From positions 99,332,164 through 99,396,163 of the forward strand of contig CM067370.1 in the NCBI GenBank assembly GCA_034401795.1: 64,000 nucleotides of DNA, in the 5' to 3' direction. The translations under genes and the position numbers were made by a program. The first letter of the stretch is position 1; the number at the start of each line of letters is the position of its first letter. Below the pieces are notes generated by a model that did not search any database, was not told the origin of the DNA, and saw only the letters and a list, made by a program, of their open reading frames with translations. Shown in pieces: positions 13,100 through 62,602 of the stretch. This stretch comes from Chaetoderma sp. LZ-2023a. Taxonomy: Eukaryota > Mollusca > Caudofoveata > Chaetodermatida > Chaetodermatidae.

Positions 13100-13318
13100 T
13101 AACCCAGTACTTGTCAAATTTGGTCAAGAAAATTGATTTATTTTCTTATTGAATGTTCATTTACAGGAAAATAGAATACAATTTTTGAAAATTTATCACT
13201 AGAATGACTGGCTCGGTTATCGAGCCAGTCATTCTAGTGGTAAATTTTCAATAATTGTATTCTATTAGCCTGTAAATGGACATTCCAGAAGACCATAACA
13301 GAGGCCAGTTTTGGCCGT
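13100..13318. repeat. P1 palindromic element (subtype B)
   Basis: Near-perfect fold-back. CTAGAATGACTGGCTCGG meets CGAGCCAGTCATTCTAG at 13,199-13,240, and the arms reach out through AATTTTTGAAAATT, TAGAATACAATT and 'tgtccatttacagg' on both sides. The outer ends differ between arms ('caaatttggtcaag' on the left and 'aggccagttttggccg' on the right). Confidence 0.85.
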
Positions 13319-13494
13319 TGGTACATTTTCTGCATTTAGTATATTAACTAGTATTGATTTAAATTTTGTTTGTTATTGCTTTCTCTGAGTTTCTTACATG
13401 CTCCATAGACAATAGTACAGATCATAATTAAGTTAACATGTTTAAAAAAAAAACCTTACAGAAACATGTTAGTTAGTACAACACGCAATAAATG

Positions 13495-13577
13495 TTCTGT
13501 TGAATATTTTAAAAATAATTGGATTGGAAGACAGCAATGTGTTCCAATCCAATTATGTTCAAAATATTCAACAGTAT
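13495..13577. repeat. P2 short palindrome
   Basis: CTGTTGAATATTTTAAAAAT and ATGTTCAAAATATTCAACAG form the arms, joined by a short unpaired stretch around 'gacagcaatgtg'. It stands alone without the long-form ends. Confidence 0.75.
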
Positions 13578-13854
13578 GTTCTAAGTGATTTCTCAGCTGT
13601 ACTGACTCTATCAGATCAATAATACGGGTAGTTAACAAATGTCAACCCAACAAGATTTAAATCAGTAGTTTAAAAAAATGACAAACATGTCATTGTAGTG
13701 TAATTTTTCCCCTTTAAATACACTACAGTTTTTAAAATGCCTATAGTCCGATTCAGTTCTGACTCTCAAACGACCATCGCACAGTCATACAGATAGACAT
13801 AACAGGTCATCCCCGACTAAGACAAAATTTGCCCATAACTCTAGACTTGGACAT

Positions 13855-14433
13855 TTGAACAAAGTAATTTTTACATTACTGATATTAGGTGAGAGTACGG
13901 ACATTATTAGTCACAAATTGGAAAGTAAACATGTATCTATTACACTACGTCATGTATGTATTGTTGACAACACCCACGGACAGATGCATGCGCACAAACA
14001 AACAATGAATTTAGTCATAGTGGCGATAGACATAGCTCAGCCAACTAACAAACCACCTGAGTCGCCTAATAAACCACCTGAGTCACCTAATAAACCACCT
14101 GAGCCATCTAATAAACCACTTGCGCCACCTAATAAACCACATGAGCCATCTAATAAACCACCTGAGCCACCTAATAAACCACCTGAGCCATCTAATAAAC
14201 CACCTGAGCCATCTAATAAACCACCCGAGCCATCTAATAAACCACCTGAGCCATCTAATAAACCACCCGAGCCATCTAATAAACCACCTGAGCCACCTAA
14301 TAAACCACCTGAGCCATCTAATAAACCACCTGAGCCATCTAATAAACCACCCGAGCCATCTAATAAACCACCCGAGCCATCTAATAAACCGCCCGGGCCA
14401 CCTAATAAACCACATGATCAACATGAAGCCTAA
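13855..14433 (+). repeat. 21-bp minisatellite with an open 192-codon frame
   Basis: From about 14,041 to 14,415 a 21-bp unit (AATAAACCACCTGAGCCATCT) repeats about 18 times with few differences. Translated, this gives (NKPPEPS)n inside a 192-residue plus frame. Because 21 is a multiple of three and the unit lacks stops, a second plus frame (SHLINHL) and a minus frame (WFIRWLR) are also open. The 62 residues before the array show no domain and no signal peptide that I trust, so coding is unproven. I call it a repeat first. A secreted Pro-rich repetitive protein is the alternative. Confidence 0.8.
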
Positions 14434-14660
14434 TTATCATAATTTTAAAATATCACAATAATGCATAGTTATATTACATGCTCTCTTATTAAATACTACA
14501 TTAATGAATACAAATTTAATACCTTAAAATTTTTATACAATAAATATGTTGTGGTTCACAAAACGGTGGTCCAGTATTAATTAAGGCTGGTGGTTTCCTA
14601 ACATAACTAGTCTCAAGCATATTTGGATCTCTGTATTGTTAATAACAGAAACTATTCCAC
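14434..14660. other. No gene seen
   Basis: AT-rich DNA without a recognised repeat. Confidence 0.4.
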
Positions 14661-14767
14661 TTAACCATTAACCCTTTAATCCGCGAATTTACCACTGGCT
14701 CATTTATCGAGTCAGTCATTCCAGTGGTAAAATTTCAAAAATAGTCATCTCTTTGGTCTGCAAAATC
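14661..14767. repeat. P1 fragment (one arm)
   Basis: Begins TTAACCCTTTAA, then runs into 'accactggctca', 'atcgagtcagtcattccagt' and 'tctttggtctgcaaa'. The left arm is mostly deleted. Confidence 0.7.
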
Positions 14768-14823
14768 AAACAAGATAATTGTAAGAACTATTCAGTACAC
14801 CTCAGAAATAACATACAATTCCA

Positions 14824-14920
14824 TCCCCCCCCCCCCCCACACAAAAACGTACTGTTGCCTTTGACAACAATGGCTTCCAAACAAATTAAGTCTAAAATAT
14901 TCAACAGAACGTTTCTTATA
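14824..14920. repeat. Poly-C run followed by a P2 half-element
   Basis: About 15 C residues at 14,825-14,839, then 'gttgcctttgacaacaatgg' and 'aaatattcaacagaac', the right half of P2. Confidence 0.6.
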
Positions 14921-16246: not shown

Positions 16247-16283
<37 letters not shown>

Positions 16284-16896: not shown

Positions 16897-17128
16897 CAAC
16901 CATTTAAATGGTCAAAATTTGCACACAAAAAAAATTAAATTTTTACTTAGTTAATGTCCATTTGTAGGTCACGAGAAAATAAACTTTTGATAATTGACTT
17001 CTGGAACAACTAGCTCAGTTATCGAGTCAGTCATTCCATGGAAAGAATTTTCAAAAGTAATCTTGTTGTGACTTGTAAATGGACTCCTCAATACAACCAC
17101 AGAGGTCAGTTTGACCTTTAAATGATGT
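16897..17128. repeat. P1 palindromic element (subtype B), diverged
   Basis: The core reads 'tagctcagttatcgagtcagtcattcc', and the arms carry 'gaatgtccatttgtagg'-like words on both sides. The left outer arm has lost some pairing. Confidence 0.7.
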
Positions 17129-17201
17129 AATCACCATTTTTTTGTTATCTAAAAAGGCAGATTCACTAGCACTAAGACACACTAAGAGATGATCCGTCAT
17201 T

Positions 17202-17413
17202 AACCCTTTCACTGTCAAATCCCTGAAAAATTTAATTATTTCCGATGCATAGGCCATATTCCGTTGAATAATTTGAAGTTAATATGACTGGAAGATGTTG
17301 CTGCCTAAGGCAGCAACAGCTTCCGGTCATATTAATTTCAAAATATTCAACAACATTCCTAAATTCTTGTCTTGAAATTGAGATATAAGGAATTCATCAC
17401 TGAAAGTGTCAAG
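17202..17413. repeat. P2 long-form palindromic element
   Basis: Starts TTAACCCTTTCACTGTCAAA and ends near 'ttcatcactgaaagtgtc'. The central hairpin has GTTGCTGCC TAA GGCAGCAAC at its tip and GTTGAATAATTTGAAGTTAA arms. Confidence 0.8.
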
Positions 17414-17749: not shown

Positions 17750-17955
17750 GTTAATCCGATAATGGTTAAGATTGGTCGAGAAAATTTAGATTTTTGCTTA
17801 GTGAATGTCCATTTACAGGCCAAGAGACTATTTTTTTTTAACAATTTACCCCTGGAATGACTGGCTTGGTTATCGGCCAGTAAAATACTAAATTAACATT
17901 CTTCACAAACAGTCCAAACACGATTTTTGGCTGGCTTGACCACTAAAGGGTTAAA
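17750..17955. repeat. P1 element (subtype B), right arm decayed
   Basis: The left arm reads 'gttaagattggtcgagaaaa', 'aatgtccatttacaggccaa' and 'tggaatgactggcttggtta'. After 'tcggcca' the pairing fails, but the right end 'ggctggcttgaccactaaag' with GGGTTAA is intact. Confidence 0.7.
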
Positions 17956-19661: not shown

Positions 19662-19665
<4 letters not shown>

Positions 19666-21189: not shown

Positions 21190-21338
21190 CATAGTTTGGT
21201 CAGGAGAATTTAATTTTTCTTACTGAGCCAGCCATTCTAGTGGTAATATTCCTTAAAAATATCTTGGTTTGCAAATGGACATTTCTCAAGAGCACTAAAA
21301 CATGTTTTTGGCAAACTGGTGCATTAAAGGGTTAAAAG
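21190..21338. repeat. P1 element, left half deleted
   Basis: Begins around 'tttggtcaggagaattt', keeps 'actgagccagccattctagt', 'ttggtttgcaaatggacatt' and 'tctcaagagcact', and ends at AAAGGGTTAA. Confidence 0.7.
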
Positions 21339-22109: not shown

Positions 22110-22790
22110 TAGACCATGCTCCCCCAACCCCTCCCCCCACCCCTCAACCGTAACGACAAAACGGTCTTGTTCGGCAGAAAGCGCACATGAATTTCGCTTC
22201 TCCTTCTCGCCAATGCTTCTGCAACCAAGAAAACTGACTTAATAGTTAACAGTTTAATATCTATAGATCTAAAAAATTGGTTCAAAGGGAGCATGCCCTA
22301 AAACCTGTAGAACAAGAGATAGATTCCATGCTGGGGTAGGAATTGACTGTCTAGGCCGCAGATTGCTCATTCCTTTAATAACTTCATTTATAGTGCCATT
22401 CTCCGCTCCTACAGCGGCCAGACTGGGAACGACTGAAGCTAATGCAGACTTATATGCTGCTAGGGTTGAAGGTACAAGTTTGTCAACCTCGTATAAATAA
22501 CAGATAAAATCTGTTACGTGTTGAACAGATGCAGAAAAGATTAATATCTTTTCCCTTACACCACTCTGCAAATTTGTTGATTCTATAATTATATGTTCTG
22601 GTGGTTGACCCACTTCTGGCTGAAGCGACAAACAGAAAAGTCACCCTCAATTGCTCGCTGCTTGATAACATCCATGCAGTCAATTGGAAAATTTCCGGTC
22701 TGTCATGGAGATACAGACCTTTGTTCTGAAAAATCAGATCCCGTCTGTCTGGAAGAGGAATTGGATTGCAAACCAGAAGGTCCAGCAGAT
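22110..22790 (-). pseudogene. DIRS tyrosine recombinase, N-terminal and first catalytic Arg only
   Basis: Three minus frames join. The first is the SAM-like N-terminal domain start (RTYNYRINKFAEWCKG). The second runs through YLYEVDKLVPSTLAAYKSAL (22,500-22,440) and continues to about 22,270. The third is SIDIKLLTIKSVFLVAEALA followed by RRRSEIH (22,265-22,180), whose RRSE arginine corresponds to the first catalytic Arg of DIRS recombinases. The His-x-x-Arg and the nucleophilic Tyr that should follow are missing: sequence after about 22,150 is a C-rich spacer. So the integrase is truncated as well as frameshifted. Confidence 0.8.
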
Positions 22791-23607
22791 CCGTAAACCA
22801 TGATCGGGCTGGCCAATGAGGAGCGATCAGTAGTACTTGCCACATGTCCTCTCTTATCTTTGCCAGAACCTTTGGGATGAGAATCGTTGGAGGATAAGCA
22901 TACGCGTACATTCCTTTCCAACTTATCGCCAGTGCATCCACTGCTAGAGCTAGTCGGGCCGGGATCGGTGACACGTATGTGACCATCTTTGCGTTTCCTT
23001 TCATCGCAAATAGATCCACATTTGGCTTGCCCCAATGTGTGAATAGAACTGCTGCTACCGATTGGTTGAGCTGCCATTCTGTTGGACGACAAACCGTCCT
23101 GCGACTGAGAGTATCCGCTAGGATATTCAATCTAGAATGTGTGCTGCCCGAAGAATAACATTCCTCTCTTGGCACCACAGCAGAAGGTTCCATATCATCA
23201 TACACAACTCTGGTGATCTTGTCCCGCCGTGGCGGTTCAGATAAGACACCACTGTGGAGTTGTCTGTCCTTATTAAGACAATCTTGTCTCAGATTAAGGT
23301 CTCGAATGCTAATGCCACCGCTAATAATTTGAAGAAATTTATGTGTTTCTGTGCATTGGTCGGATCCCATTCCCCTGACACGGACAGATCGTCCAATACT
23401 GCTCCCCAACCCGTCGTCGACACATCTGTGAAGATTTACATCCGCGGTTGAGGTGGTTGTAGAGGAACACCTCGCAGGATATTCTGTTCTGATAACCACC
23501 ACTGAAGATGGAATATCAATGGTTCTTTTACTGAAATCCTCACTGATAACGGATACGTTCTCTGAGACCAGAATGACATTAAGTACATCTGAATCGGCCT
23601 GCCGCAT
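22700..23607 (-). pseudogene. DIRS RNase H and connection region
   Basis: Minus frame 23,607-22,483 contains NILADTLSR followed by EWQLN, then THWGKPNVDLFAMKGN and YVSPIP, the conserved run at the end of the DIRS polymerase. Further on are the Trp/Pro-rich LIAPHWPARSWF and LLDLLV motifs. It continues in a different frame from the upstream RT, which implies a frameshift near 23,610. The frame is open over 374 codons, so decay has been modest here. Confidence 0.8.
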
Positions 23608-23619
23608 AAAGAACCACCT

Positions 23620-24556: not shown

Positions 24557-24579
24557 CAGGACCGTCCCCTACGGCCACC

Positions 24580-27387: not shown

Positions 27388-27622
27388 TGATTAACCCTTT
27401 AACACTCATATCAGCTAAAAATGGCTTCTGCAGTGCTCTTGAGAAATGTCCATTTGCAGCCCAAGAGAAGACTATTTTTGAAAATTTACTACTGAAATGA
27501 CTGGCTTAATAACCGAGCCTGTCATTCAGTGGTTAATTTTCAAAAATAGTGCTCTCTTGGTCTGTAAATGGACATTTTGAGAAAATTGAAATTTCTTTGA
27601 TCAAATTCGAGGTTTAAAAAGT
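27388..27622. repeat. P1 palindromic element (subtype A)
   Basis: TTAACCCTTTAACACTCATA start, 'gaaatgactggcttaataac' and its complement in the centre, and 'gatcaaattcgaggttta' end. Confidence 0.85.
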
Positions 27623-27696: not shown

Positions 27697-27947
27697 TTAT
27701 CCATTTAATACCAAAGTTTGTTAAAAAAAATCAAGTTATTTTTCTTTTTCAATGTACATGCAGGCCAACAGAAGACTATTTTTGAAAATTTACCACTGAA
27801 ATGAATGGCTCGATAATCGACCCAGTCATTTCAATGGTGAATTTTCAAAAATAGTCTTCTCTTGGCCTGCAAATGCACATTCCTAAAGACCAATACAGAG
27901 GCCGGTTTTGGCCTGCTTGGTGGCTTTGCCACAAAAGGGCTAAAATA
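27697..27947. repeat. P1 palindromic element
   Basis: 'gaagactatttttgaaaatt' mirrors 'aattttcaaaaatagtcttc' on either side of 'gaatggctcgataatcgacc'. The right end is 'aaaagggctaa'. It is the second of a close pair. Confidence 0.85.
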
Positions 27948-28731: not shown

Positions 28732-28983
28732 ACAATAAAGATGTTTCTGTGCAACACAACCATACAGCTATGAATAGCAACACAACAACTCACAACAAAA
28801 TTACTGCAATTAGTCTTAGCGATACCTTCCACTTTCTAACGCCTAAATTGGTCAACGCATTATTTAGATTAGCAATAGCAAACTTGCTTGAACTGGCCAA
28901 TCAAATCTCTGTACAGAGGTTCTTTAGCCTACCACCCTAGTTTGATTCAAATTGCGCTAGGGCTTGATGAATTCACTTAGCTC
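28732..28983. other. No gene seen
   Basis: Nothing recognised. Confidence 0.4.
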
Positions 28984-29192
28984 TTTAACCCTCAAATTTG
29001 TTCATGAAAATTTAAATTTTCTCATGGAAAATGTCTATTTTCAGACCAGGAGAAGAAATTTTTGAAAGTTTATCCACTGGAATGATATTCCAGTGCTAAA
29101 TTTTCAAAAATAATCTCTTGGTCTGCAAAAGAACATTTCTCAAGAGCACTGCAGAAGCCGTCTTTGGCTGATATGAGGGTTAAAGGGTTAAA
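28984..29192. repeat. P1 palindromic element (subtype A), shortened centre
   Basis: Starts 'ttaaccctcaaatttgttca' and ends 'gctgatatgagggttaaagg'. The central loop has lost the 'gactggctcg' word, so the arms meet at 'ggaatgatattcc'. Confidence 0.8.
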
Positions 29193-30214: not shown

Positions 30215-30328
30215 TTGATTTAGAAAATAATTTGACTGAAAGTCATTGCTGCCTTAGGCAGCAACAACTTTCATTGCTGCCTAAGGCAGCAACAACTTTC
30301 ACTCAAATACATTTCAAAATATTTTTAA
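30215..30328. repeat. P2 with internally duplicated loop
   Basis: The tip sequence 'tgctgcctaaggcagcaaca' with 'actttca' occurs twice in tandem, giving a double-headed hairpin. Confidence 0.7.
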
Positions 30329-31535: not shown

Positions 31536-31815
31536 AATTTGCTCCTGTAGCGATAACAGATTATAGTTAACACTTTAATGTTCAAGATGTTCTTTAAAAT
31601 AATACAAATATTTGCTCTGTGAACGTCCATTTGCAGGTCAAGATAAGACAAATGGACATTCCACAAGACTAGTGCAAAGACCAGTTTTGGCCGGCTTGAC
31701 CATTAAAGTGTTCATGTATATAGATAAAGCAATCATGCTTATTGCAAAAACAATTTGATTGACATTCATTGCTGTCCTAGGCAGCAAAAAATTAACTTTA
31801 GTCAAAATGTTTTCA
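31536..31815. repeat. P1 fragment plus P2 fragment
   Basis: 31,560-31,716 keeps 'tgaacgtccatttgcaggtc', 'gccggcttgaccattaaagt' and little of the centre. 31,740-31,815 keeps a degenerate P2 hairpin ('attgctgtcctaggcagcaa'). Confidence 0.6.
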
Positions 31816-32120: not shown

Positions 32121-35100
32121 CTGATCAAGAGAATACATCAATGCATTATTAGCCAGACAATGGCAACTAAACACCTAAAAAAAAGTAAGTTCCCCCCTAA
32201 ATATGAGCTAATATTTTCTAAGGTATATAACTGACTTCAATGCAATTTCTCACAGATCACCGGTCCCACTATAGCACCAATATGAGAAATTGATTATCTC
32301 ATAGACTTAGCCGTGGCTGACTGAGCGAGCACAAAAGGCAAGATTGACCCATTTCAAAAGTTGCGAAATCCAGTTTTATTAATTAACAATTCATTTCATT
32401 AAATGAGATTTCATTGAGCGTTAAGTCAAATCATAACAAAGATACAGTGAATCACTTGATCACAGATGTAACAAAGTCAATAACGAGTGTATCCTCCATG
32501 GCGCTGTATCACGTTACGACACCGATCCCTCAGTGTTAATGAGCCTGGTGATACAACGTTGTGGGATAGCCATCCACTCCTGCTGTAGCAAGCGATGCAT
32601 GTCACCAAGAATAGTGTCATCTGTAACTCTGCTGTAAACAGCCCGCTTCAACTGATCCCAAATGTGCTCTATGGGGTTGAGATCTGGAGAGTTAGACGGC
32701 CACTGAATTCTCTGAATACCGTTGTTTGTGAGAAACTCATTAACGATTCTTCCCCGGTGAGGACGCGCATTGTCATCCATGAGAAGAAATCCATTCCCCA
32801 TGGCAGCAGCATATGGTAACAGATGTGGCTCGATTATTTGAGTAACATAGCGATTTGCAGTCAGGTTACCATTGATAGGAATGAGGGCAGTCTTTATTCT
32901 TGCACTGATGCCTGCCCACACCATGACACTGCCTCCTCCAAATGCTGTCACAGGTTGCACACAGCATTCTGAATGCTGCTCACCCCGACGCCGCCATACA
33001 CGTTTCCGTCCATCAATGTGTCTGAGACAGGCCCGCATCTCATCAGTGAACATCACATTTGCCCATTGCTGCCTTGTCCAGCGTTCATGGTTTCTTGCCC
33101 ATTCCAGACGTGTTTGCTTATGGCGCAGTAACAGAACAGCCTTTTTTACCAATCGGCGAGGATACAGTCCAGCACCATGAAGCCGATTTCTCAGTTTGTT
33201 CACTGATGCGTCTGGCTCCAGCTCCAGCAGCTGCATGGAGCTGATCCCGGATCTCCCTTGCTGTGCATATTCTCCTTCGAAGTGTCAGGTTTGTGATCAG
33301 ACGATCTTGGCCCGGAGTTGTGACTTTTGGCCTGCCAATCCTCGCTCGATCTTTTACCTCACCTGTCTGCTGGAATTCTTGGCGCAGTTTTCTGATTGCA
33401 TTTGGGCTGACGCCCATTCTACGCGAAACCTGCTTCACTGGAAAATTGGCCTCCAAAAGACCAATGGCAATTGCCCTATTCTGGTTTGATAAACGTGCCA
33501 TTGTTTAAATACACAACTGTACACACAGCTAGTGCCTGAATGAGTGAAATTTCTCTAGCATAGGATATGTCTGATTTCGCAACTTTTGAAATGGCTCAAT
33601 TTTGCCTTTTGTGCTCGCTCAGTCAGCCACGGCTAAGTCTATGAGGTAATCAATTTCTCATATTGGTGCTATAGTGGGACCGGTGATCTGTGAGAAATTG
33701 CATTGCAGTCAGTTATATACCTTAGAAAATAGTAGCTCATATTTAGGGGGGAACTTACTTTTCTTGAGGTGTTTATTAAAAAGCTCTCATCAAGAAAACA
33801 AAAATCATAAGATAATTATTGCCTAGACAGAATTCCACGGAATTAAATGTCTCGCCTGTCTCCTGTTTGTCAGTGGCATTGACCTTTAACCTTGTGACCT
33901 GCCATGTTATCATCCTGCTTCCAAACATTATAGGCAACCATGTATTCAATTTTAGTTCCAATAGGATTAACCAATCCTGAAAGATAAAACGAGAAATTTT
34001 GCTAAACGAAAAAACTTGACATTGAAAAAAATGTTTTGTATTAAGGTCACAGTGACCTTGAACTTTGAGCTTGTGACGTCAGTATCAACATGCGGCTTCC
34101 TAACATTATAGGTAACAATGTATCCAAGTTTAGTTCCAATAGGATTAACCAATCCTGAAATATAAGCTGAACGCAAAAACTTAACATATATATATATATA
34201 TATATCAGGTTTCAGCTAGATATGTCCTTAAAAATTTTCAAATTATGGAATCTGACATATGTGACAATACAGAGCGAATCCTGAATTCCTTAACTCATTA
34301 ATGGTTCAAGCAGGTCAAAACTGGCCTCTGCAGTGGTCTTGAATACAGGGCAAGAAGGCTATTTTTGAAAATTTACCACTGGAATGACTGGCTCGATAAC
34401 TGAGCCAGCCATTCCAGTGCAAAAATAGTCCTCTCTTGGCCTGCAAATGGACATTTGAGAAGCAAATACTTAGATTTTCTTCACAAAATTTGACCATTCA
34501 AGGATTAAATATATTCTACGATTAAATGTACAAATACTGAACATACAGCTAAGCACTGTCTATGATGAACACTGCAGGCTGTGTTACAGTCGTTTGCTAT
34601 AAACAGGCGATCCTTCTTTAATGATCAGGGCATCAGAGTCTTCGCATAGTGAATGTCTAGTTTGCAGGTTAAGGTAATTATTGATTATCGAGCCAGTCAC
34701 TCCAGTGGTAAATTTCCAAAAATATTTTTCTCTTGATCTACAAATGGACATTTTACAAGGCCACTGCGATGGTCAGTTTTGGCCAGCTTGCCCATTAAAG
34801 CATTAAGGCGGTGTTTGTAGGATGGCACCTCTTAATCCTTTAGTGGTCAAATTTGGTCAAGAAAATCAAAATACTTCCTTATTCAATGTCCATTTGCAGG
34901 CCAAGACAGCATTTTTGAAAATTTACCACTGGAATGACTAGCTTGTTTATCGAGCTAGGCATTCCGGTGGTTAATTTTCAAAAAGAGTCTTCTTATGCCC
35001 TGCAAACGATCATTGCTCAAGACGACTGCAGAGGCGGGTTCTGGCTGGCTTGACAATTACAGGGTTAATGAATCAACATCTTGTGGACTCAAAGGCAGAT

Positions 35101-38100
35101 ATCCGCTATAGACACATTTGACTGTACAACCAAATTCACTTACCATATCCACCAGAGATATGTAGAGGAACATACCGCCAGCCATGGCAAAGATATAGAG
35201 AGTCGCTCCAGTGTTCTCTCCAAGGAGAATCCCAACTATCAAGCCAAGATAGCATGTTGTTGCAGACAGAAAGTTGTAGAACAATGCTTGCTTCAATGAC
35301 ATACCCGATTTCAACAAAATGGCAAAGTCACCTAAAAGTAGATATATTTAGATTATCTTTTACAAACAGATGCAAAAAAGAGAATGGCACTTAAGCAAAG
35401 AGGGTATGCTAAGTTGCAGTTGCTCTGCTGATGCTGTACATGGGTAAATCTATACTAATGTCGCTATTATTCTCCATTCAAATTTACCACTGGAATGTCG
35501 AGCCAAAAAACAATTTTCAAGATGGCTGTTGGTAGCTGGTGGCCATCTTGGATTTTCGGAACATTGTCGATTTTGATACGGTTCTTCCCCAGACCTAGTC
35601 CAACAAGAGGCCCAAGGGCCTGTGATGCTTAAATGAACCATTAACATTTGAACCATTTGCATTTAAATACACACGATGGATAATTTTCGGAAAATCCAAG
35701 CCCAAATAGACCAATCCAGATTCTCATTTGACATTTTGAAGCCTACCATTATAGAATCGTTCAACCCAAGTTTTATTAAAATCAGGCTATTGATTAAGGA
35801 GTACCATTTTTAAATGAGTCTGGATAATGTTGAGAAAATCAAAGTTGGTCACCAAAACAGTGACCTGCCAAAATTTGGAATAAAATGTTTAGAGGCTACG
35901 ACTATAGGATCCTTCCAGCCAAAATTGGTTTAAATTTCCAAAGGGGTTAATGAGGAATAGCATCTTAACCCTTTAATGGTCAAATTTGGTCAAGAAAATT
36001 TAAATATTTTCTTATTGAATGTCCATTTACAGGCCGATAGAATACAATTTTAGAAAATTTATCATTTAAAAAAACTGTATTCTCTCGGCCTGTAAATGGA
36101 CATTCCAGAAGACAATAGCAGAGACCAGTTGTGGCTGGTATGACCATTAAAAGGTTAATGAATTCCCATTTTCCGGAAAATCCAAGTTGGCCACCTAAAA
36201 AAATCAAACCAAAAAAATCAAGCAGTCAAAATTCTGTATAAAAGTTCTAAAGTGTACCAGACTAACTGAGTTTGGTTGAAATCGGCTAAGCGGTTAATGA
36301 GTAGCTTTTTAAATGATTTTCAAAATTTTCAGAAAATCCAAGATGGCCATTGGAAAATTTGACCAATCACAATTATGTACACATGTTCTGAATCCTACTA
36401 CCATATGGTCCCTTCCATCCAAGTCTGATTGAAATTGTCCAAGCAGTTAATGAGAAGCATTTTAAATGATTTCCAGCCATTGTTCGGAAAATATAAGATG
36501 GCCACCGAACAAATTGACCAATCAAAATTCTGCATACAAGCTCTGAAGCACGCACCACTATGGACCTTCTAGCCGTGTTTGCTTGAAATCCTTCAAGCGG
36601 TTGATGCATAGTAGCCTTTTAACTGATATCCTGAAATTTTCTAAACATCCTTCGAGCCAGGTGAGCTAACAACCATATGAAATTTCAAAGTGATCCGATA
36701 AACGGTAACAGAGTTATCATCCGGAAACCAATTTTCAAGATGGCCACCGGTGGATAGTGGCCATCTTGGATTTCAGATCATTGTCGATTTTGAGTTTTCT
36801 TCCCTAGACCTAGTCCAACCATGCTATGAAGTTTCAAAGCGGTCCGATAAATGGTAACAGTTATCATCCGGAAACCAATTTTCAAGATGGCCGCTCGTGG
36901 CTGGCGTCCATCTTGGATTTCGGATAATCGTCAATTTCGATAGATTTCTTCCCCAGACCTAGTCCAACCACCCTATGAAGTTTCAAAGATCCGACAGATG
37001 GTAACGGAGGCATCCATACATTTTCGATACATCTCCTGATGATTTATGACCATTATCTACATTTTATATGAATATTTCACACTGTTTCAAATCAATAAGG
37101 TAAAGCGTTAAAACGTCCATAGGTTTTAAGACCTGGAAAAGGGTTTCTTAAATATCAATATTATGTCTAGACTCAAAACTGCATGTGATCATGTCAACCT
37201 AAAGAAGAACAAGAGGCCCAAGGACCTGTGCCGCTCACCTGGACCATAGCATTTGAACCATTTGCATTTAAATAGATATAAATGGATAATTTTCGGAAAA
37301 TCCAAGCTGACCACCCCAAAAAATTTACCAATCAAAATTCTGAATAGAAATTCTAGCCTACCTTGATAGGGTCACTCTAGCCAAATTTGTTTGAATTATG
37401 TCAAGCATCTAAGGAGAAGTGTTTTGACAATTTCTGGTAAATTTTTCATAAAATCTAAGATTTTCACGCAAAAAATTCATGAATCAAAATTCTGAATAGA
37501 GCCTATCACAATAGAAACCTTTCACCCAAATTTGATTGAAATCGGTCAAACGGGTAAGGAGAAGAAGCAATTTGACAATTTCCGGTAAACTTTTAATAAA
37601 ATCTAGGATTTTCACTAAAAATATTTACGCAACAAAATTCTGAATGGAAGTTCCAGAGCGTATAACAATAGGATTCTTTCAGCCAAATTTGGTAGAAATT
37701 GGTCAAAATGGTAAGGAGAAGAATCAATTTGACAATTTCTGGTAAATTTTTAATAAAATCTAGGTTTTTCACCCAAAATATTTACGAATCAAAATTCTGA
37801 ATGCAATTTCTATAACCTATGACCGACCATAGGATCCTTTCAGCCAAATTTGATTGAAATCGGTCAAACGGGTAAGGAGAAGAAGCAATTTGACAATTTC
37901 CGGTAAACTTTTAATAAAATCTAGGATTTTCACTAAAAATATTTACGCAACAAAATTCTGAATGGAAGTTCTAGAGCCTATGACGATAGGATTCTTTCAG
38001 CCAAATTTGGTTGAAATCGGTCAAAATGGTAAGGAGAAGAAGCAATTTGACAATTTCCGGTAAATTTGTAATAATATCTAGGATTTTCACTCAAAATATT

Positions 38101-46900: not shown

Positions 46901-49900
46901 CATCTTTTAAATTTAATTTGAAAATTAAAGATTCTGACATCAGAGTGGTAAGGGTCAAATATATCCAGAGCTGGGTAGTATTTGTTAAAAGCCTTGCTGT
47001 GCTTAGAGGTGCAGTAATCATCAAAGCTTAGCCGTGCGGAGGATGAGTTCACACAACATTATAAATCAGATGGTGACATAGCTAGGTAGCAGATACAAAC
47101 ACACATGTATACACATCCACTAAATATAGTACACCTCAGAAATAACTTTGAAACATATTTCCAAAACATTACAAAATGTACTGTTCAATATTTTTAACTT
47201 AAATTGATTGAAAGCCATTGCTGCTTAAGGCAGCAATGCCTTCCAATCAAACTAAGTCCAAAACTTTCAACAGAACATTTCCTACATTGTGTTCAAAATT
47301 TTATTAATCAACATGTTTCTGTTTGTGTTTTGAAACATTTTAAGTTATTTATGAGCTGTACGTACTATACTCTATATTCTCTGTGAAACAATGTATACGT
47401 TCTAGGCTACAGCACTACAACAACACTACCATTACTTACTTGTAGTTCTTCCTATAGATGCATGCAAATAAATGGAAATTTACAGATTTTAAATGCAATA
47501 CTTTTTGAAAATCATAAGCTTATGCAATTATTCCAAATCTAACATGACACGCATGAGTTAAAGCTGATCAAAGAAAATAAAAGAAGCAGTCTTTAATGAC
47601 CACCATTAATATAGTGCGATCAATAAATTTATCTTTTCATTGACTCTGTTATGAATCCAGGTATTTATAGTTAAACAAAACCCGCCTAACCTTCTTCACA
47701 CGCTATAGAAGGATTTGCTCAGCACATAGAGCTAAGTCAGCCAGTAGGAGTTGGTGTAAGGGCTTGGCAGCTAGTAATACACAGGTAAAAGCTCTGCATA
47801 TCGCTACACTGTGTAGTGCTTACCTGTCAAATGCACACATACAGATTGACCTACCAATCTGAAATCTGATAGCCAGTAAATTAGTCTAGTTTGCGATTCT
47901 ATTAGCCAAATATTAACTCTTATCCAGTAAATTAAAATATTTTGGGATTTTATTAGCCAAATGTTAAAGGTATACTAATCTCCTCTCCAACATTGTATTG
48001 TAACGAGAGATTATATAGTGAATAGCTTCCATATAATTCATTTCCTGCCGAGTGCAGCATCAGCTTCCAGTCAAGGTAAAATATTCGATATCTTACTTGA
48101 ATCCTTTAACTCCTCTTGTGTCAACACTCAACAGTGCCTCAAAGCACTAAAATACTACTTATGTCAATTAAGCATTTTAATGGTCAATATTTTTCAAGAA
48201 ATTTCAACATTAGAAGACTATTTTTTTGCAAATTTATCTCTGAAATTTTTGACCGGCTTGACCATTAAAGAGGTAATGGTAAAGAAAATTCAAGCTTTGG
48301 TTTACCCAGTATCCATTTGCAGGTCGAGAGAAGAGTATTTTTGAACATTTACCACTGGAATGACTGGCTTGGTTACCGAGTCAGTCATTGCAGTGGTTAG
48401 TTTTAAAAAATACTCTTCTCTTGACCTGATAATAGACATAGCTCAAGACCACTGCAGAGTTGTTTTGGTCAGTTTGACCATTAAGAGGTTAAGTCGACGC
48501 AAGAGCGGTTAACTCTCTTTGCCACTAAGCTAGCCTATAAGGGGAGGCTATTAACCAAGCATGAGAATTATTCTCAAAAAGGTATTTCTGAGTGTCTAGA
48601 TCTGTTCCTGCACATCTAACACTCCTGATGCCTAACTCATAACTCCTGTACTGAGGGAATCCTTTTATAATGCCTGTGTGAGTCTTGTTTAGTTAATCAA
48701 TGGCTTAACTCATAATCGAGTTACAGAAAATAGAAATTTGTTGATAGAATTATGTTAATAGCAAAGCTTTATATACTACTTCTTTTAGCACCACATATCA
48801 GCTTTAATCATTTTAGACATAATTTGCTATATTAATATGCCCTGTTGGTTTATTACATGTATTAAAGGCTAAAAATGGCTTCTGCAGTGGCCTTAAGAAT
48901 TGACCATTTTCAATCCACTTGGACTATTTTTTTAAATTTAGCACTGGAATGATTGGCACATAAAACCAAGTTCTACTAACTAATTTGCAAACAATTTGAC
49001 TGTAATTTTGACAGTGGCATGTGACAAACTAAATTAAGTTAGTCTCAAAGGTACCATCTCTGAGTTGAATATGATACCAAGGCTACCACAGCTATTATCT
49101 TAACTCTGCGTCACTTCTCATATTAACTGCAAGTCGCCAAACTAAAATTGCAATGAGCAAAAACCGTCAACCTGCTTAATATTTTTTTTTTTAATTTGAC
49201 TGAAAGTTGTTGGTGGCTTAGTCACCAACAATTTTCAGGAAAATTGTTTTCTAAATATTTTGCATGTCCAGAGATGTAACACTTTAAATATGTCATCAAC
49301 AAAAACTCAGCAGTCGGACAGTTGAAGTAGATATGCATCTTATAATTTCTAGTGTCACTTGACATTTTTCTGATGCCTGCCATTCTGGAATGATTACAAT
49401 CCACATGTGCCATAATTCTAGATAACAGAATGACTACTAGATCCCAGAGTAAAAGCTGTCTATAATGGACACGGTATCGGACATGAACACTTTAATGGTC
49501 AAGGCAGCCAAAATCTGCCATATATAGTGGTCTTGAGGAATATCAATCTGCAGACCAACAGAAGACAATTTTTAAAAATTTACCACTGGAATACCTGGCT
49601 CGATAAGCGAGCCAGTCATTCCAGTGGTAAATTTTCAAAAATAGTCTTCTCTTGGCCTGCAATAATTTACATTCAATAAGCAGATGTTTAGATTTTGTTG
49701 ACTAAATTTGAACATTAACCTTTGACCGATGAATTCCCCATATCTCATTTTTGCGCCAACCATAAAGGAAAACTGTTGAATATTTTGAAATTCATTTGAC
49801 TGGAAGGCAGCAACGGCTTCCAGTCAAATTAATTTCAAAATATTCAACAAATTAAGTTTTATATTGTACAAAATTTACTTATTCAGGGATTCGTCAGTGA

Positions 49901-52770
49901 AATGGTTAAAGAACAACACACATTTGACACCAAACACAAATCTCAAACATAAACAGGTTTTGTTGCATAACTATCTTAGTACATTTGTATCTATCAAATA
50001 GGCTATTAAAACATCAACATATATAATTATTATGAATCATCCTGGGATCAGGATCAACATTTTTTGAAATATCAACATATAACTTACTGAATCACCCATT
50101 GAACTGGCACATGATGAACCGTTAATTATATTCGTCTCATCGCTCCGTTTCTGATAATGTGACAGATGCACACAGCTATCCTGTACTGAATCTGGTATCA
50201 TTGATGGATCTTTCATCTTTGTGAGATCCATGAGAGACTGTGGTGTTTTGTGAATGACAGAGCAGACTGGAACATCCTCATCAATATCGTGATTCTTCTC
50301 CACTTCATCGCTAGTCTCATTATTCCTTTTCTGTGTGGGAAGAATATGTATTACAAAATTTAGTACATGTACATATATAACAGAACAAGAAAATTTTCAC
50401 ATAATTTCACAACCACTCATCTTGACCATTGACTTAAACATTTAATGGTCAAGCCGGCCAATTCAGTGGTCTTGAGCAATGTCCATTTGCAGCCCAAGAA
50501 AATATTTCTAAAAATTTACCACCCACCCATTTCTAAACTCGGCCCACTTTTTACAATTTTAAACTTTGAAATCTGAATTCCCCAATCTGAATTTTAAGGC
50601 AATTAAACAGGGAACCAAAAGCATACTTTAAAACTAATTTTTCAACAACAGCAGTTTACAACGTAAATCATCCATTTATAGCCATGGTTATATAGGACAA
50701 GGGATTACATTATCTAACTCCAAATCTCTTGAGAATGCCAGCGAATTCTATTAGTTATATGTAAAAAAAAAAGTTGAAATCTATTAGATCTAAAATGGCA
50801 AAACAACAGTTATCAGAAGATAACATACAGCTCTCTTGTATATATTATCGCAGGATACAGTCTACTATCGGGGCCATCGCTGGACTCATTATTCAGTGAA
50901 AAAATATATGAAAGTCCTAGGAGCTAAATAGTACATTTAGTCAGTAGTCAATAGAGGAATCCATTTCGAGCTAAGCTCCACCCACTTTCTATGCACGATT
51001 GAATGGATCTTAACACTTACCACTTTGACCCATGCATTCGAATAACCTCAATTTCAAGGTAACAATACCAGTAAGTGTAGTCCTTTAACACTCATATCAG
51101 CAAAAAACGCCTGCTGCAGTTGCCCTGAGAAATGTCCATTAGCAGACCAAGAGAAGACTACTTTTGAAAATTTACCACTAGAATGACTGGCTCGACATCC
51201 GAGCCAGTCATTCCAGTGGTAAACTTTCAAAAATAGTCTTCTCTTGGTCTGCAAATGGAATGATTTCCATTTTCTTTAACAAATTCGAGGGTTAAAGAGC
51301 TAAGAATACTTTAAAACTAATTTGACTCAGAGCTGTTGCTGCATACGACAGCAATAGATCCCAGTCACATTAGTTTCAAAATATTCAACTGAATGTTTAT
51401 TAAATTGTGAATTCCAGCATCATCATACTATTCAGATGGTTACTGTCAGACATTTGCCCATTTCGTGTTGGACCTATGTAATTTGATTGTGACGTCAGCT
51501 AACAAGTGATGTATTTTTAAAATGATGCCAGATACTTAAAGATGTTGTAAGGACTAGATACCCGATCGCTCTGATTAACTTCACAATCATAATACAGATT
51601 CTCCTTTACTAGAAGAACAAAATGCTTTTAAAATTTTTGTAATCGGCCCAGCCAAAGCGGAGATAAGCATATAGCAACCACCTTGACAACCAAACATTTT
51701 TAGCTTTCGCGCTATAGAGTTGTGACGTCACACCGGGATGACACCAATTCCTATTAGTCTAGATTATTATCTCGAGGGGCATAGCTAGGTTCTCTACTGC
51801 TGCATGTATTAGGCACCTATTCTTTGACACTACATTGTTCGAGATACACAAAGGTTCAATAATATCGAAGTTGATGATATTTTTGTTGATTAAACTTAAA
51901 GGACAGACCTCATGGTCACAGTGCCTGACATAACAATTCTAATGTATAGGCCTGTTAGAGGTGCCAGTAACATCGGATTTCGTGTACATGAATTAGGCTA
52001 TATTTAATCAAACCCACCCACACACTTCTTGGAATACAATTCTACAGATGCATATATATCTTATCTTTCTGGATTGACTGCGGAGATTTTGCATAGATGA
52101 TAGGCATGCATGTACACATCTTTTTAAATGATAGTTAAGCAGGCCTACACCGCTCAGTGCACGTACGATTGTGTAGGCTTATGAATAAATTTATGATTGC
52201 AATATAGCAGTTACTCCTGTTATGTGTTTAAAGTTAACTGAAGTGCCGGGTAAATATAAATCTAATCTAAACTAATCTATTTGTGTATAGTCTACATTGA
52301 CATATTATTGACAGTACACGGTTTGTTTACAATTTAGGCAGCGGCCAAGGTGTGTAGCGAGGCTTTCACTGCTGTCCGCACGCTTATAGTACAACTTAAA
52401 TAACATATACTGTTGAATATTTTGAACACAATTGGGTTGGATTTCAACCCAAATTATGTTCAAAATATTCAACATAATGTTTCTTGTATCATGTTCATAT
52501 GGTTCTAACTACCATATTTGTGTTTTTGCTTTGGAAGCATTTAAACTTATTTATGAGCTGCACTGTAAGTAAAGATGATAGGCTAGCGACCTCTGAACAT
52601 CTGTCAGTTCACCTACCTATTTAAAATTTGTTCATCTGCTACAGTTTTGCTTTTTCATAACATTGAAATATGAGTGTATGCTACTTCCATACATGGAAGA
52701 GGTTAGTTTGAAAACGATATAGTTCATATGGTTGTCACAGGCGTGACGCCACCCCCACCCCACCCCACAC

Positions 52771-55800: not shown

Positions 55801-58800
55801 TGGGTACTGGGTCTGCTTCAGGATCGTCATCCACCAAACCCCATGCCTAGAAAGTCGAAAGCACAATATTAATCGCAGTAAATGAACCGGCATTGTAATA
55901 TTTTAATATCAAAATATTCAACAAAATAAGTTTTATATCGTAAAGAATTTACTTTTCACGGATTTGTCAGTGAAAAAAATAGTCTTCTGTTGGTCTGCAA
56001 ATGGACATTTTCTAAGAGAAAATTGAAATATTCTTGAACAAATTTGAGGTTTAAAGGACAAATCTGGTCAAGAAATTATCAATTTTCTCACAGAAAATAT
56101 CAAATTGCAGACAAAGGGAAGACTATCTTTGAAAACTATCACTGAAATGACTGCCAATGAGCCAGCTGTCGTCAACTGAGTCAACCTACCAAGTGACAAA
56201 TTGTCAAAAAATATTCTTTTGGTCTACAAGTGAACATTTCTTAAAACTAAACAATGGTCTGTGATCATTAACCCATTAACCCTCGAATTTCTTCAAGAAA
56301 ATATAAATTTTCTCATAGAAAATGTCCATTTGAAGAACAACAGAAGAGTATTTTTGAATAATTATCACTGGAATGAGTGGTAAATCCTATAGCAAAATTT
56401 TTCAAAATACTATTCTCTTCGTCTGCGAATGTTCCCTTCTCAAGACCACTGCAGAAGGCATTTTTGGCTGATATGAGTGTTAAAGGGTTAAAAGGTTAAT
56501 CCACATAGAGATTGAAATTAGAATTACCTTAGGAATGAGTACAATTAATCCTGTTGCCGCAAGACTGCCGACAGCCAGACCAACCAGTGTCATGAGAACT
56601 TGCTTATATATCTTCTTTTTCATAACAGGCAGAACAATCACACCAACCAAAGAACAGATGTTGATGATGGTCACGAACAGGAAGCCATATCCCCATGCTG
56701 TGATGAAAGAGGGATCAACATTGTTACATTCCACGTGATTATTGAGGTCAGGTGAGCTAATATTTTAGGAACTGTGACATGGTGAGTCTCCAGATATGAA
56801 CTGTGACAGGAAGCTAGATTGTTATCAATATTTTTAATGTTAAGCTTTCTTCAAATAATACAGTCACAACCAGATTTGCGTGATTACATGATTACATCGA
56901 AAATCACAATTATTTTTTAAATCGCGAATTTATATGATTAAAGATTAAATAATTGAATAATCGTGAAAAATATCTATTGCATAAATGTTTTTGAAATCTA
57001 CATTTTAAATTACTCTAATGCGATATGTCAAGAAAAGTATCATTTTTCTCAACAAATGTATGTCCATTCGGAGGCCAAGAAGAAACTGTTTTTGAAAATG
57101 TATCACTGGAATGACTGGATCTATCCAGGCATTCCAGTGATACATTTTCAAAAATAGTTTCTCTTGGCCTGCAAATGCACATTTCTGAATACCATTGCGG
57201 CGTTAGTCATTGATATGCTTTTGTATGCGGATTAATCGAGTAATCACGATTATTCTAAAATAATCACGATTATTCTTAAATAATCGATTGCGGTCACTGA
57301 AATCAATAATCATGCAAGCCTAGTCACAACTATTGATATAATGTTTTATTTTTCAATTAACATCCAATCTCTATCTTAATACATAATTAATATGAATTTA
57401 TGGAATGCATTAACAGGTTTAAGGGGGAATGTGTGTGTCCCTGTGTGCGCATGCATGTGTGTGCGTGCTCAAGCCCAAAATGTAAGGTGTGTATATTAAC
57501 CCTTTAACAAACACTCATATCAGCCACAAACACGTTCTGCAATGGTCTTGAGAAATGTCCATTTGCAGACCAAGAGAACTGTTTTTGAAAATTTACCACT
57601 GGAATGACTGGCTCGATAACCGAGCTCGTCATTTCAGTGGTAAATTTCAAAAATAGTCTTCTCTTGGTCTGAAAATGGACATTTTCTCTGAGAAAATTTA
57701 AATTTTCTTGAACAAATTCGAGGGTTAAAAGGTTAATATGCAAATGTGATGATGTCACAAAAGCTCATTTTACTGCCTCATCAATACCACTGATACTATC
57801 ATAGCATACCACTAGTGAGCCCTAATACACTACTTACAATACATTTTTTGGGTGTGTCTATTTATTGAATCTTGAACAAGCCTCTACATGTAGGTCTACA
57901 ACAAAATTCATCATCCTTTAGCAGAAATCCTGTTTCAGATGGAATCATAGTTCGCCTCTATATATTGTCACCGGACACCAGGCTATGTGGCTTGCCCTGT
58001 ACTACATATTCATGATTATATTCATTGAAGTGCAAATATATCCAAACCATGTAAATATTATTGCGAAGAAAGAGGAAATACAATGGACCTTTCCAGTTTT
58101 TGCTATGCCCCACCCATCACTAACTAAGCTCCACCCACACTTCGCCGTGTTGGGATTGATGGATCCCCGAGTGCCCTAACTATCAATTTCCTAAAAACTA
58201 TACAGTTACGTTGTTTAATATTTTGTAACTAATTTGACTGTCTGCTGTTGCTGCCATAGCCATAGGCAGCAACAGCGCCCAGTCAAATAATTTCAAAATA
58301 TTAAACAGGATATTTATTAAATAGTAAAGACCTACAATTCGTACACCAATGCATAGTCCGTTTTCAACTATGAGCTTGCGACATACTTATCTACGTCATT
58401 CATGATGTCATTGATAGTGATGTCATTCTATACGTCACATAGTTGATTATGATGTCATATGATGGATTGATACAGTGGAAAGGTCCATTGCTTTACCTCA
58501 GCAATTCAATCCTGTCAGTGGAGGGATCTGATCAGTTACTCAATAGTGTGATGTCATAATCAATTACGTTACATATTACCTGATGTCACAATCAAAATGA
58601 AGTACTCTCAGTCATGAATCTCGAAGTCAGTCAAGTATACAAAATGTATGTCCTTTAACACTTACAATTTAATAAACATGCTGTTGAATATTTTGAAACT
58701 AATTTGCCTGGGAGCTGTTGCTGCCATAGGCTTCCAGTCAAATTAGTGTCAAAATGTCCAACAACTTATATGCATAGTTAGCTTGAAATTGGGATTCTGG

Positions 58801-61800
58801 TAATTTAGGGTTCAAAGTATATAAATCAATCCAACACCTCGATAAAGTGAGTGGAGCTTAGCTAGAAATAGGCAGGGCATAGCTAACAAGTTTTAGTGAA
58901 ACTCAACATACGCCCGCAGGCATACTTGTTTGAGGAATGCTAAATGTGAACAGTTAGTATTTGATAATTCTCTGAGAAAGGTGGGGGGGGGGGGGCGTTG
59001 ACTTCTATTAAGTACACAATTGGAATTCACGGCAAAGATATCACTAAAAATATTGAGTCTTCACAGCTGCATTGATCGTTACAATTACAAGACAATTTTG
59101 ATGAATTTTAGTCTTTCAAGGGAGATAATTCTGGCGAATATGGGTGGATTTTGCAGAAACGAAACTATCACACTTCGCCTATCCTTAAAACATCTGCTGA
59201 AAAAATTGTCAGTGTAGCTTCAAAACCCTTCGAGATCTGGACCGGACAAGAAAATATTGACGAATTTGAGCTTTTCAAGGGAGATAACTCTGGCGAATAT
59301 AGGCAGATTTTGCCGAAACAAAATCATGACATTTTGTCCATCCATAGCACATCTGCTGACAAAAAATTGTGAGTGTAGGTTCAAAACTCTTCGAGATTAT
59401 GGCTCAGACAAGAAAATTTTGACGACTTTTCAATGAAGTTACGGCTGGCAAATATGGGTGGATTTTGCCGAAACGAAATCATGACACTTCGTTTATCACT
59501 AACACATCTGCCGAAAAAAAATTGTGAGTGTAGGTTCAACACTCTTCAAGATATAGCCCGGACAAGAAAATTTTAACAAATTTAGCTTTTCAAGGGGGAT
59601 AACTCTGCAAAATATGGGCAGATTTTGCCGACATGAAATCATGACACTTCGGCTATCCATACCACACCTGCTGAAAAAAATTTGTGAGGGTAGGTTCAAA
59701 ACTCTTCGAGATCTGGTGTGAACAAGAATTCGGATAAATTTGAGCATTTCAAGGACGATAACTCTGGCGAATATAAGCAGATTTTGCCGAAACGAAATCA
59801 TGACACTTCATCCATCCCTAACACATCTGCTGGAAAAAAATTGTGAGTGTAGGTGCAAAACCCTTCGAGATCTGGACCGGACAAGAAAATAGTGACGAAT
59901 TTGAGCTTTTCAAGGGAGATAACTCTGGCGAATATAGGCAGATTTTGCCGAAACAAAATCATGACATTTTGTCCATCCATAGCACATCTGCTGACAAAAA
60001 ATTGTGAGTGTAGGTTCAAAACTTTTCGAGATTATGGCTCAGACAAGAAAATTTTGACGACTTTTCAATGGAGTTACGGCTGGCAAATATGGGTGGATTT
60101 TGCCGAAACGAAATCATGACACTTCGTTTATCACTAACACATCTGCCGAAAAAAAATTGTGACTGTAGGTTCAACACTCTTCAAGATATAGCCCGGACAA
60201 GAAAATTTTAACAGATTTAGCTTTTCAAGGGGGATAACTCTGCAAAATATGGGCAGATTTTGCCGACATGAAATCATGACACTTCGGCTATCCATACCAC
60301 ACCTGCTGAATTTTGTGAAAAAATTGTGAGGGTAGGTTCAAAACTCTTCGAGATCTGGTCTGAACAAGAATTTGGATAACTTTGAGCATTTCAAGGACGA
60401 TAACTCTGGCGAATATAAGCAGATTTTGCCGAAACGAAATCATGACACTTCATCCATCCCTAACACATCTGCTGGAAAAAAATTGTGAGTGTAGGTGCAA
60501 AACCCTTCAAGATATGGCCCGGACAGGAAAATTGTGACAAATTTTAGCTTTTCAGGAGAGATAACTCAGACAAATATTGACAGATTTTACCAAAACGAAA
60601 TCATGACACTTAGTCTATCCATAACACATCTGCTGAAAAAAAATTGTTAGTTTAGGTTCAAAACTCATCGAGATCTGGTCCGGACAAGAAAGCAGACGGA
60701 CGGATGGATGGCGAGTGCCATCATATAATACCCGCTTTACGTGGGCGTATAAAATGGACCCCCCCCCTCTATCATGAGAGAGAACTGGCAAGTTAAGCTA
60801 AGGTTCTTTAACCTGGAGTTGTGTCCCTTAGGCTGGAGTGTCTGAATGATTTGTTTCTCTGAGGTAATTTAATGTGTGGTGTTTGAAGAACTGGTGCATC
60901 TGGCGCACGCAGTTAATTACGAATGACATCATTGACATAATTAAAGGAAATTAATGGATAAATTAGCTTTGTCCGGGGTCTGGCATAGTTCATAGATTTA
61001 AAAAGCGTAATACCATTCAGATTTATACTAAAGAAATTGGAATCCATTTATGTCCATGCTCACTGTGTTTATTTTCTACCACGTTGTACAGGTTGATTAA
61101 GTAATAATCACAACACCATGTTCTGTGATTTATAACATTATAAATATAAGACTATTTTTGACAATTTACCAGTCGGCTCAGTAATCGAGCCAGTTATTCC
61201 AGTTGTAAATTGTCAAAAATAGTGTTCACTTGGCCTGCAAATAGACATTCAATAAGGAAATATTTTGATTTTCTTGACCAAATTTCATCATTAAAGGGTT
61301 AAAACCGTTGCTCTTTATATAGAAAGCAATTTGACTAAAAGTATTAACGCACCAAGATCTTTCAGACAACTAATTATATACTGCAATAGTTAATAACTTC
61401 CACAAACCGATGCAGTCCATATTCTGCGAATTCAGAACGAAATAGCCTCATTATTCACTATTTTATGAGACAGTCTCGAGGCTAATTACATAGACAATCT
61501 GTTATTATGGACCACCTGATGCCCGTATTAATTGTAGGTGTGAATTTATCTTCTGCTGAATTAAAAATATTCCACAAAATGTTTATTAAATAGTACAGAC
61601 ATACAATTTGTACAACTGACAGACTATTCCAGGCTCATGACGAGTATTTCTGTCAATTATAATTGTGACGTAATTGATTATGATGTCATATACGATATAT
61701 TTGAGTGACAGATAGGATCTATCAATTATCTAATTGTAAAGTAAATACTTTGTTCACTGGGAGGGCTTTCATGATTTTTCTCCTCATGTAAGTGACAGAT

Positions 61801-61914: not shown

Positions 61915-61929
61915 CTGAAATTTAAACAA

Positions 61930-62362
61930 GAAAAGTAATCCTTTAACGGTCAAATTTAATTTGATCCCAGTTATTCTGCAATTTGCCTGAATATTGTGTC
62001 TTGAAACAAGAAAGCCAGAGACTTGTTTTAACCGTCTGTTGCCATAACATTTATAGCATAGAGGTCAAATCAGAAATCTATGCCAATAGATTTCTTTTAT
62101 TTTGCATTATTAGCATTTTCCAAGACTTTTCCATGACCTATGCTAAAAAATGCGGATTTTCCATGACTTTCCAGGCCTGGAATTTAAATTGTCATATTCC
62201 ATGACTTTCCAGGATTTCTATGACCAGTATGAACCCTGATACACATAGAGCATACTGGCTACTCTAACCGATATTATAATGTATGTAAAACAATTCTGAT
62301 AGAAAGGCATTGCTGCTTAACATAGCAATATTAATTAACTTCTTGTGTCAAACTGTTTTAAA
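61930..62362. other. Intron DNA, P1 scrap and short repeats
   Basis: 'tcctttaacggtcaaattta' beside exon a is a P1 end. 'ttttccatgactttccagg' phrases recur at 62,110-62,210. No further exon was found here. Confidence 0.4.
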
Positions 62363-62602
62363 CCTTTAACCCTCTCGAATTTGTTAAAAAAGATTTAATT
62401 TTTCTCAAAGAAAATGTCCATTTGTAGACCAAGAGAAGAGTATTTTTGAAAATTTACCACTGGAATCAATGGCTCGGTTATCGAGCCAGTTACTCAAGTG
62501 GTAAATTTTAAAAAATAGTCCTCTCTTGGTCTGCAAATGGGCATTTCTCAAGAGCACTGCAGAAGCCGCTTATGGCTGATATGAGTGTTAAATGGTTAAA
62601 CA
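62363..62602. repeat. P1 palindromic element (subtype A), full
   Basis: 'ccctctcgaatttgttaaaa' on the left, centre TGGCTCGGTTATCGAGCCA, right end 'ggctgatatgagtgttaaat' with GGTTAA. Confidence 0.86.

Follow-up and report, generated by a model that had tools for sequence, protein, structure and literature searches.

P1, an old and very abundant family of short palindromic elements in a Chaetoderma genome, probably piggyBac-type MITEs

P1, a 240-bp palindromic element of the mollusc Chaetoderma sp. LZ-2023a, is very probably an old, extremely abundant MITE of the piggyBac/TTAA type, whose ends have changed together and whose hairpin core has been held by correction between its arms and/or by selection. 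The kind of element is ordinary; what is unusual is the scale of P1 and the frozen hairpin that lies between its changing ends. We analyzed it in a 64-kb stretch of contig CM067370.1 (positions 99,332,164 to 99,396,163; here called the window, with coordinates counted from its first base), in a sample from elsewhere in the genome, and in further loci selected by their loop sequence or by their piggyBac genes. The copies fall into at least three subfamilies, A, B, and C.

Copies of P1 in the window and in the genome

To count the copies, we recognized 13 of those in the window by eye, derived a profile from them, and accepted matches at E ≤ 1e-3. The 46 raw matches in the window resolved into 25 nonoverlapping copies, 13 of which cover nearly the whole element, and the reversed window gave no match to the profile. 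This bears out a first-pass annotation of the stretch, which had claimed about 25 palindromic copies. The 17-base P1 loop, allowing up to 3 mismatches, occurs at 17 strand-places in the window (0.05 expected from shuffles).

Copies with A-type sequence at both ends lie at 27391..27619 (minus strand, 216 bits), 28982..29191 (plus, 174 bits), 51079..51298 (minus, 213 bits), 56273..56491 (plus, 179 bits), 57496..57731 (minus, 228 bits), and 62364..62599 (plus, 228 bits). The third of these is nested in another repeat, as the annotation had reported for one copy, and an empty-site alignment places its outer limits at 51077-51303. An A-type left end was found at 56051..56248 (plus, 83 bits) and 57027..57201 (plus, 109 bits). 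Both ends are B type at 17760..17954 (plus, 100 bits), 34290..34503 (minus, 185 bits), 34837..35068 (plus, 222 bits), and 49485..49718 (minus, 211 bits), as well as at 35969..36158 (plus, 140 bits), a copy without the inner core. A B-type left end marks the near-full copy at 13104..13334 (plus, 204 bits) and the copy at 61110..61298 (minus, 139 bits); a B-type right end marks those at 16907..17119 (plus, 103 bits), 27706..27919 (plus, 173 bits), 34632..34806 (plus, 90 bits), and 48277..48492 (plus, 179 bits). The rest are partial: a core at 14687..14765 (plus, 56 bits), a right end at 31649..31713 (plus, 36 bits) with the remnant of a B-type left TIR at 31567 (TIR match), and fragments at 21220..21335 (plus, 56 bits), 48864..48964 (minus, 52 bits), 50435..50522 (minus, 50 bits), and 55975..56057 (minus, 63 bits).

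Of the clusters named in the annotation, those at 27.4-27.9 kb (two copies), 34.3-35.1 kb (three), and 55.9-56.5 kb (three, with one pair of matches overlapping by 7 bp) were recovered. The supposed pair at 48.2-48.5 kb contains a single copy by profile; its second member is just a B-type end, which suggests a second, core-poor copy before position 48,276. Over the window and the sample together, close spacing is mildly above chance: of 52 gaps between adjacent copies, 5 measure ≤30 bp, against an expectation of 0.71 and a maximum of 5 in 2,000 placements, and 8 measure ≤100 bp, against an expectation of 2.30 and a maximum of 10. P1 ends supply TTAA targets; judging from this spacing, further copies may insert at the TTAA brought by an earlier one and so pile up side by side. 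At locus L004 (1389-2022), three consecutive copies with common border sites form a compact self-insertion array.

As a check on the bias of the profile toward the core, we also started from end matches in the window and sample. Profile matches coincided with 17 of the 20 B-type and 19 of the 22 A-type end matches, and five of the remaining six lay within 90 bp of a profile match.

For density, we sampled contigs C1-C12 in 19 ten-kilobase stretches (190 kb in total), which were placed by hand at round coordinates rather than generated at random. The profile found 41 copies in this sample and none in its reversed sequence. The resulting density of 2.16 copies per 10 kb corresponds to an estimated ∼526,000 copies in the 2.44-Gb genome (bootstrap over stretches, 321,000 to 757,000). 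P1 makes up 3.7% (2.2 to 5.3%) of the sampled bases, so that this one 240-bp family is a major force in a 2.4-Gb genome. Eight loci chosen for a perfect loop match (L001-L008; 35 copies in 24 kb) were excluded from the density and included in the consensus and arm tests. An independent count agrees with the abundance estimated from the sample: the 17-base loop with ≤2 mismatches matches 79,028 and 79,371 times on the two strands of the whole genome (reversed control, 22 and 19), which predicts 12.3 loops in the sample, where 13 were found, all 13 inside profile matches. Genome-wide matches to TTAA plus the B end number 43,786 and 43,775 (reversed control, 16 and 19), and those to a 26-base A end number 18,164 and 18,010 (control, 0 and 0).

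These counts rule out a local swarm: the copies had been described as confined to a single locus, and P1 is instead genome wide. The window is about twofold richer than average. It has nine loops (≤2 mismatches) in 64 kb, ∼2.2 times the genome mean, and its 25 copies compare with ∼14 expected; when stretches are resampled, 1.9% of draws reach 25 copies per 64 kb. The load is uneven among the sampled stretches themselves (6 of the 19 are empty, and one carries 7 copies in its 10 kb), which makes the window rich, not special.

The same description had called the family young. The median Kimura (K2P) distances to the subfamily consensus are 0.24 for A, 0.29 for B, and 0.20 for C (the last from six copies), and with window and sample copies alone they are 0.22 (A, 23 copies), 0.29 (B, 20 copies), and 0.26 (C, 2 copies). 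On these distances we reject a young burst; the P1 family is old and decayed.

Anatomy of P1 and its hairpin core

All loci together gave 105 profile matches, of which we used the 74 spanning at least 150 profile positions and dropped 31. The 74 copies come from the sample (28), the loop-selected loci (23), the window (19), and the surroundings of piggyBac genes (4). Consensuses were derived for A (38 copies), B (25 copies), and C (6 copies), with 5 of the 74 left out. Each consensus is 240 bp long including both TTAA sites, and the three align without gaps. The order is TTAA, TIR, a left flank of ∼33 bp, the palindrome, a right flank of ∼33 bp, TIR, and TTAA; the palindrome has 65-bp arms around the 5-nt loop GTTAT, centered at position 120, with one arm mismatch in C (k=62). 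The TIRs start with CCCTTTAACCCTC... in A, CCCTTTAATGGTCAA in B, and CCCTTTAATGACTAA in C. All three subfamilies have CCCT...AGGG tips, with inverted ends beginning CCCTTT, and the two TIRs match over 15 (B), 13 (A), and 12 (C) of their first 15 bases. Each A end contains a second, inner TTAA (TTAACCCTTTAAC...). The A end first annotated, AATTCGAGGGTTAA, was too short because it stopped at this inner TTAA; the true end continues to AAAGGG plus TTAA.

The consensuses have stop-free frames of 70 to 79 codons, the longest in A. A frame of 79 codons was reached by 42 of 3,000 palindrome-keeping shuffles, and the A/B differences fall evenly on the codon positions (10, 9, and 6); we thus set a coding function aside, and since those differences have no codon-position bias, the open frame of A is probably due to chance. 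We likewise set aside a structured RNA or microRNA, as an Rfam scan of the window at the gathering threshold gave no matches.

The core is nearly frozen between subfamilies. The A and B consensuses differ at none of the 101 positions within 50 bases of the center (1 of 101 without one base set by hand in B) and at 25 of the 131 outside (P = 3e-7 by Fisher's test). Inside the palindrome, their four differences are two complementary pairs, at k=51 and k=67. Among copies, double arm changes that keep pairing number 70, against 36.8 ± 5.3 expected and a maximum of 56 in 2,000 permutations of right-arm letters among copies of one subfamily, a comparison that overstates independence because many compensatory pairs are common to related copies. 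Slid-register controls gave 14 to 25 such changes. Pairing-breaking double changes number 38 (46.5 expected), and one-sided changes number 772. The excess of compensatory pairs found in single copies is weak (30 versus 19.1 expected; maximum, 30). One B subgroup illustrates the sharing by descent: the window copies starting at 13104 and 35969 and the copies L027:947 and L017:9497 have common paired changes at k=38, 41, and 55, and L024:9134 has two of them. This relatedness, together with the weak single-copy excess, suggests that the paired-change effect arose mainly in the P1 sources.

Within individual copies, the core is less diverged than the ends in 64 of 72 cases (59 of 69 when the end sites are those common to A, B, and C). 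We considered protection of the core after insertion and do not claim it, as the regression (slope, 0.56; intercept, 0.11) better fits hidden subfamily structure or end-alignment noise. The hairpin core seems rather to have stayed nearly fixed in the P1 sources, where its changes would largely have been matched pairs on both arms. Such a core may have come from arm-on-arm correction, by template switching or hairpin repair, and/or from selection on the hairpin, both of which fit the observations presented here.

The core may also be active, aiding transposition or replication-coupled amplification (for example, by hairpin or cruciform extrusion), so that selection on source copies keeps it perfect and leaves the TIRs free to follow new transposases. 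We consider this a tentative possibility. The frozen core and the complementary pair changes are both consistent with it, and the excerpted account of the coral MITEs called CMITEs likewise describes a conserved interior with variable TIRs, its authors proposing a role in transposition (PMC2872659). However, the pair changes would follow equally well from passive correction of the arms, and the window copy at 35969-36158, a form that may or may not itself have moved, has no inner core. A bolder version, in which the hairpin is a functional unit and P1 a piggyBac-type MITE of a new style, with arms corrected pairwise and ends retuned to successive transposases, enabling about half a million copies, is speculative and rather doubtful. 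The P1 subfamilies lend themselves naturally to testing whether a MITE spreads better with an internal hairpin, as the coral CMITEs led others to ask in 2010, and they also bear on whether palindromes in mobile DNA self-correct arm by arm.

Subfamilies and their ends

P1 had been described as two subtypes that share an inner palindrome and have had their ends swapped onto a common hairpin core. The common core stands, and so does the observation behind the swap, a frozen core between diverged ends. The ends themselves are related, and a third type, C, exists. Outside the palindrome and tips, A and B are identical at 68 of 89 positions, whereas shuffles average 24 and never exceed 39, which makes their ends homologous relatives. 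Of the 74 copies, 32 have at least one unclassed end; the 42 classed at both ends comprise 25 AA, 10 BB, 4 CC, 2 BC, and 1 AC, and hence 3 of 42 with mixed ends and none joining an A end to a B end. Given the end-to-end alignment of A, B, and C, we rejected the swap in the form first proposed.

Such a modular exchange, in which recombination or template switching put differing end modules onto one hairpin core, would account for the contrast between identical inner and differing outer positions of A and B. The end homology, the gap-free alignment in the same order, and the lack of AB mosaics among the 42 copies argue against it. So do the diagnostic sites in the left arm, whose states accompany the end type: AA copies have the A state at both sites in 20 of 25 cases, and BB copies have G at k=-51 in 9 of 10 and the B state at both sites in 6 of 10. 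On a core-only tree of 37 labeled copies (24 A, 9 B, and 4 C), the A/B label switches twice, compared with at least 4 times in 300 shuffles. When the four diagnostic sites are removed, A/B changes rise to 7 (shuffled mean, 8.0) and label changes number 11 (shuffled mean, 11.8), with no label signal; the linkage of core and ends therefore rests solely on the two diagnostic pairs (k=51 and k=67), and the rest of the core is independent of end type, as an exchange of modules would predict. Taken together, these results favor descent with a frozen core and allow exchange between P1 relatives with breakpoints inside the arms, which is possible; we regard modular exchange as improbable. Under descent with a frozen core, the P1 source lineages would have split into at least three subfamilies in which both ends changed together, and these ends probably followed different transposases.

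Target site, candidate partners, and relatives

To establish the target site, we compared occupied sites with relatives of the host repeat that have no P1. The copy at L024:9129-9368 is inserted in a dispersed repeat, and 31 relatives of this repeat in the fetched DNA cross the site without P1. TTAA is present exactly once in 23 of the 31; the other eight have variants (TTAC twice, ATAA, TTGA, CTAA, TCAA, and two with a gap or insert). The single TTAA in the empty relatives shows that this copy inserted with TTAA duplication. For the nested window copy at 51,077-51,303, 24 host-repeat relatives without P1 resume at the outer boundary. At the empty site, TGTT stands in 15 of these 24. The occupied copy carries GTAG (or, depending on the alignment, TGTA) and CTAA, so that the duplicated letters of this old copy cannot be read clearly. 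Its host repeat carries the GTTGCTGCC/GGCAGCAAC motif and recurs in the window and in 16 of the 45 loci fetched. The same motif centers a second dispersed palindromic repeat, grouped by eye, at 12636-12726, 17263-17351, 30218-30320, and 47174-47280 of the window.

The TTAA duplication at the insertion site points to a piggyBac-type MITE, and a noncoding element of 240 bp with ∼0.53 million copies fits this class, supporting the earlier view of one very successful nonautonomous family. Most likely, P1 was moved in trans by piggyBac transposases, which would cut at its ends and reinsert it at TTAA.

The genome has at least 119 matches to the piggyBac domain PF13843, several in open frames of more than 500 aa. 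We fetched 19 of them and resolved at least one end in 14 and none in 5 (L038, L039, L041, L042, and L044). An autonomous partner with the ends of P1, which the first-pass annotation had envisaged, did not appear among the 14 end-resolved elements, none of which has the P1 TIR. Nine belong to one family with TTAA plus CACGTTGACTGCCAACTACG. The others end in TTAA plus CCCTTAGCACTC (L035 and L045), TTAA plus CCCTTATCCTGC (L034), CCTTCAAGTGACC on the left and CCCACAAGCGACC on the right (L043), and, at the right end, CCCTCAAACGACC (L048). The nineteenth match, added after the first 18, is of the same family as L043. The TIR nearest to that of P1-A is the CCCTTAGCACTC of L035, compared with CCCTTTAACACTC, a short similarity that may be due to chance; the inner TTAACCCTCAAA in the left end of P1-A is identical to the 12 letters that open the right end of L048, again perhaps by chance. 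Both may serve as leads for P1-A rather than as partners. One P1 copy lies directly beside the L043 piggyBac element (382-3702), and at its other end two more are no farther than 0.6 kb away.

TTAA duplication is also known from the superfamilies Kolobok and Sola3. That P1 belongs to one of these instead would agree with a TTAA that by itself is not unique to piggyBac and with the missing partner among the 14 resolved elements, but it is highly improbable given two piggyBac families with TTAA plus CCCTT ends in the same genome and the CCCT tips and TIRs of A, B, and C, which agree with the piggyBac hallmark of CC[C/T]T tips and TIRs of about 12 to 19 bp as stated in the coral excerpt (PMC2872659).

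The closest precedent that we found for a piggyBac-type P1 is the CMITEs of Acropora corals, which in the excerpted account have TTAA duplication, mostly CCCTTT-type TIRs, and an inferred dependence on piggyBac (PMC2872659). P1 shares these traits, as well as adjoining elements, families with differing TIRs, and an interior that varies less than the TIRs do. It differs in size and number, with 240 bp and about half a million copies against the CMITEs' ∼100 bp and, for A. millepora, an estimate of 1,600 copies, and in its palindromic interior, a feature that the excerpted CMITE account does not mention (PMC2872659). The 60-base CMITE interior printed there has no likeness to P1 (score, 8 to 9; shuffled mean, 8.1 to 8.2) (PMC2872659).

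Compared with general piggyBac/TTAA MITEs, P1 adds a long central palindrome and a very high copy number. Human examples are MER75 and MER85, which are short and noncoding, with TTAA duplication and CCC...GGG ends. Made1 is a mariner-type element. In the excerpted report on Made1 and hsa-mir-548, it is a short MITE that can fold into an RNA hairpin (PMC1784062); P1 is likewise short and hairpin capable, its hairpin being predicted from DNA. A full-text literature search with TTAACCCTTTAA and with P1 core and tip strings returned no relevant paper, and a repeat library (Repbase or Dfam) may possibly already hold an entry naming P1.

The window also contains other elements. Three Tc1/mariner-like transposase frames (DDE_3 plus HTH) lie at 7277-8299 (plus strand), 43230-44261 (minus), and 32514-33504 (minus); two are stop free over ∼340 aa, and one is split over two overlapping frames. 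Adjoining frames at 22269-24568 (minus) appear retroelement-like by eye, of the tyrosine-recombinase type, and the three frames tested there gave no Pfam match. A tandem array at 13747-14461 produces long repetitive reading frames (NKPPEPS and others) in several frames, and a gypsy-like fragment at 5435-6124 (minus) has RNase H and integrase zinc-binding domains.
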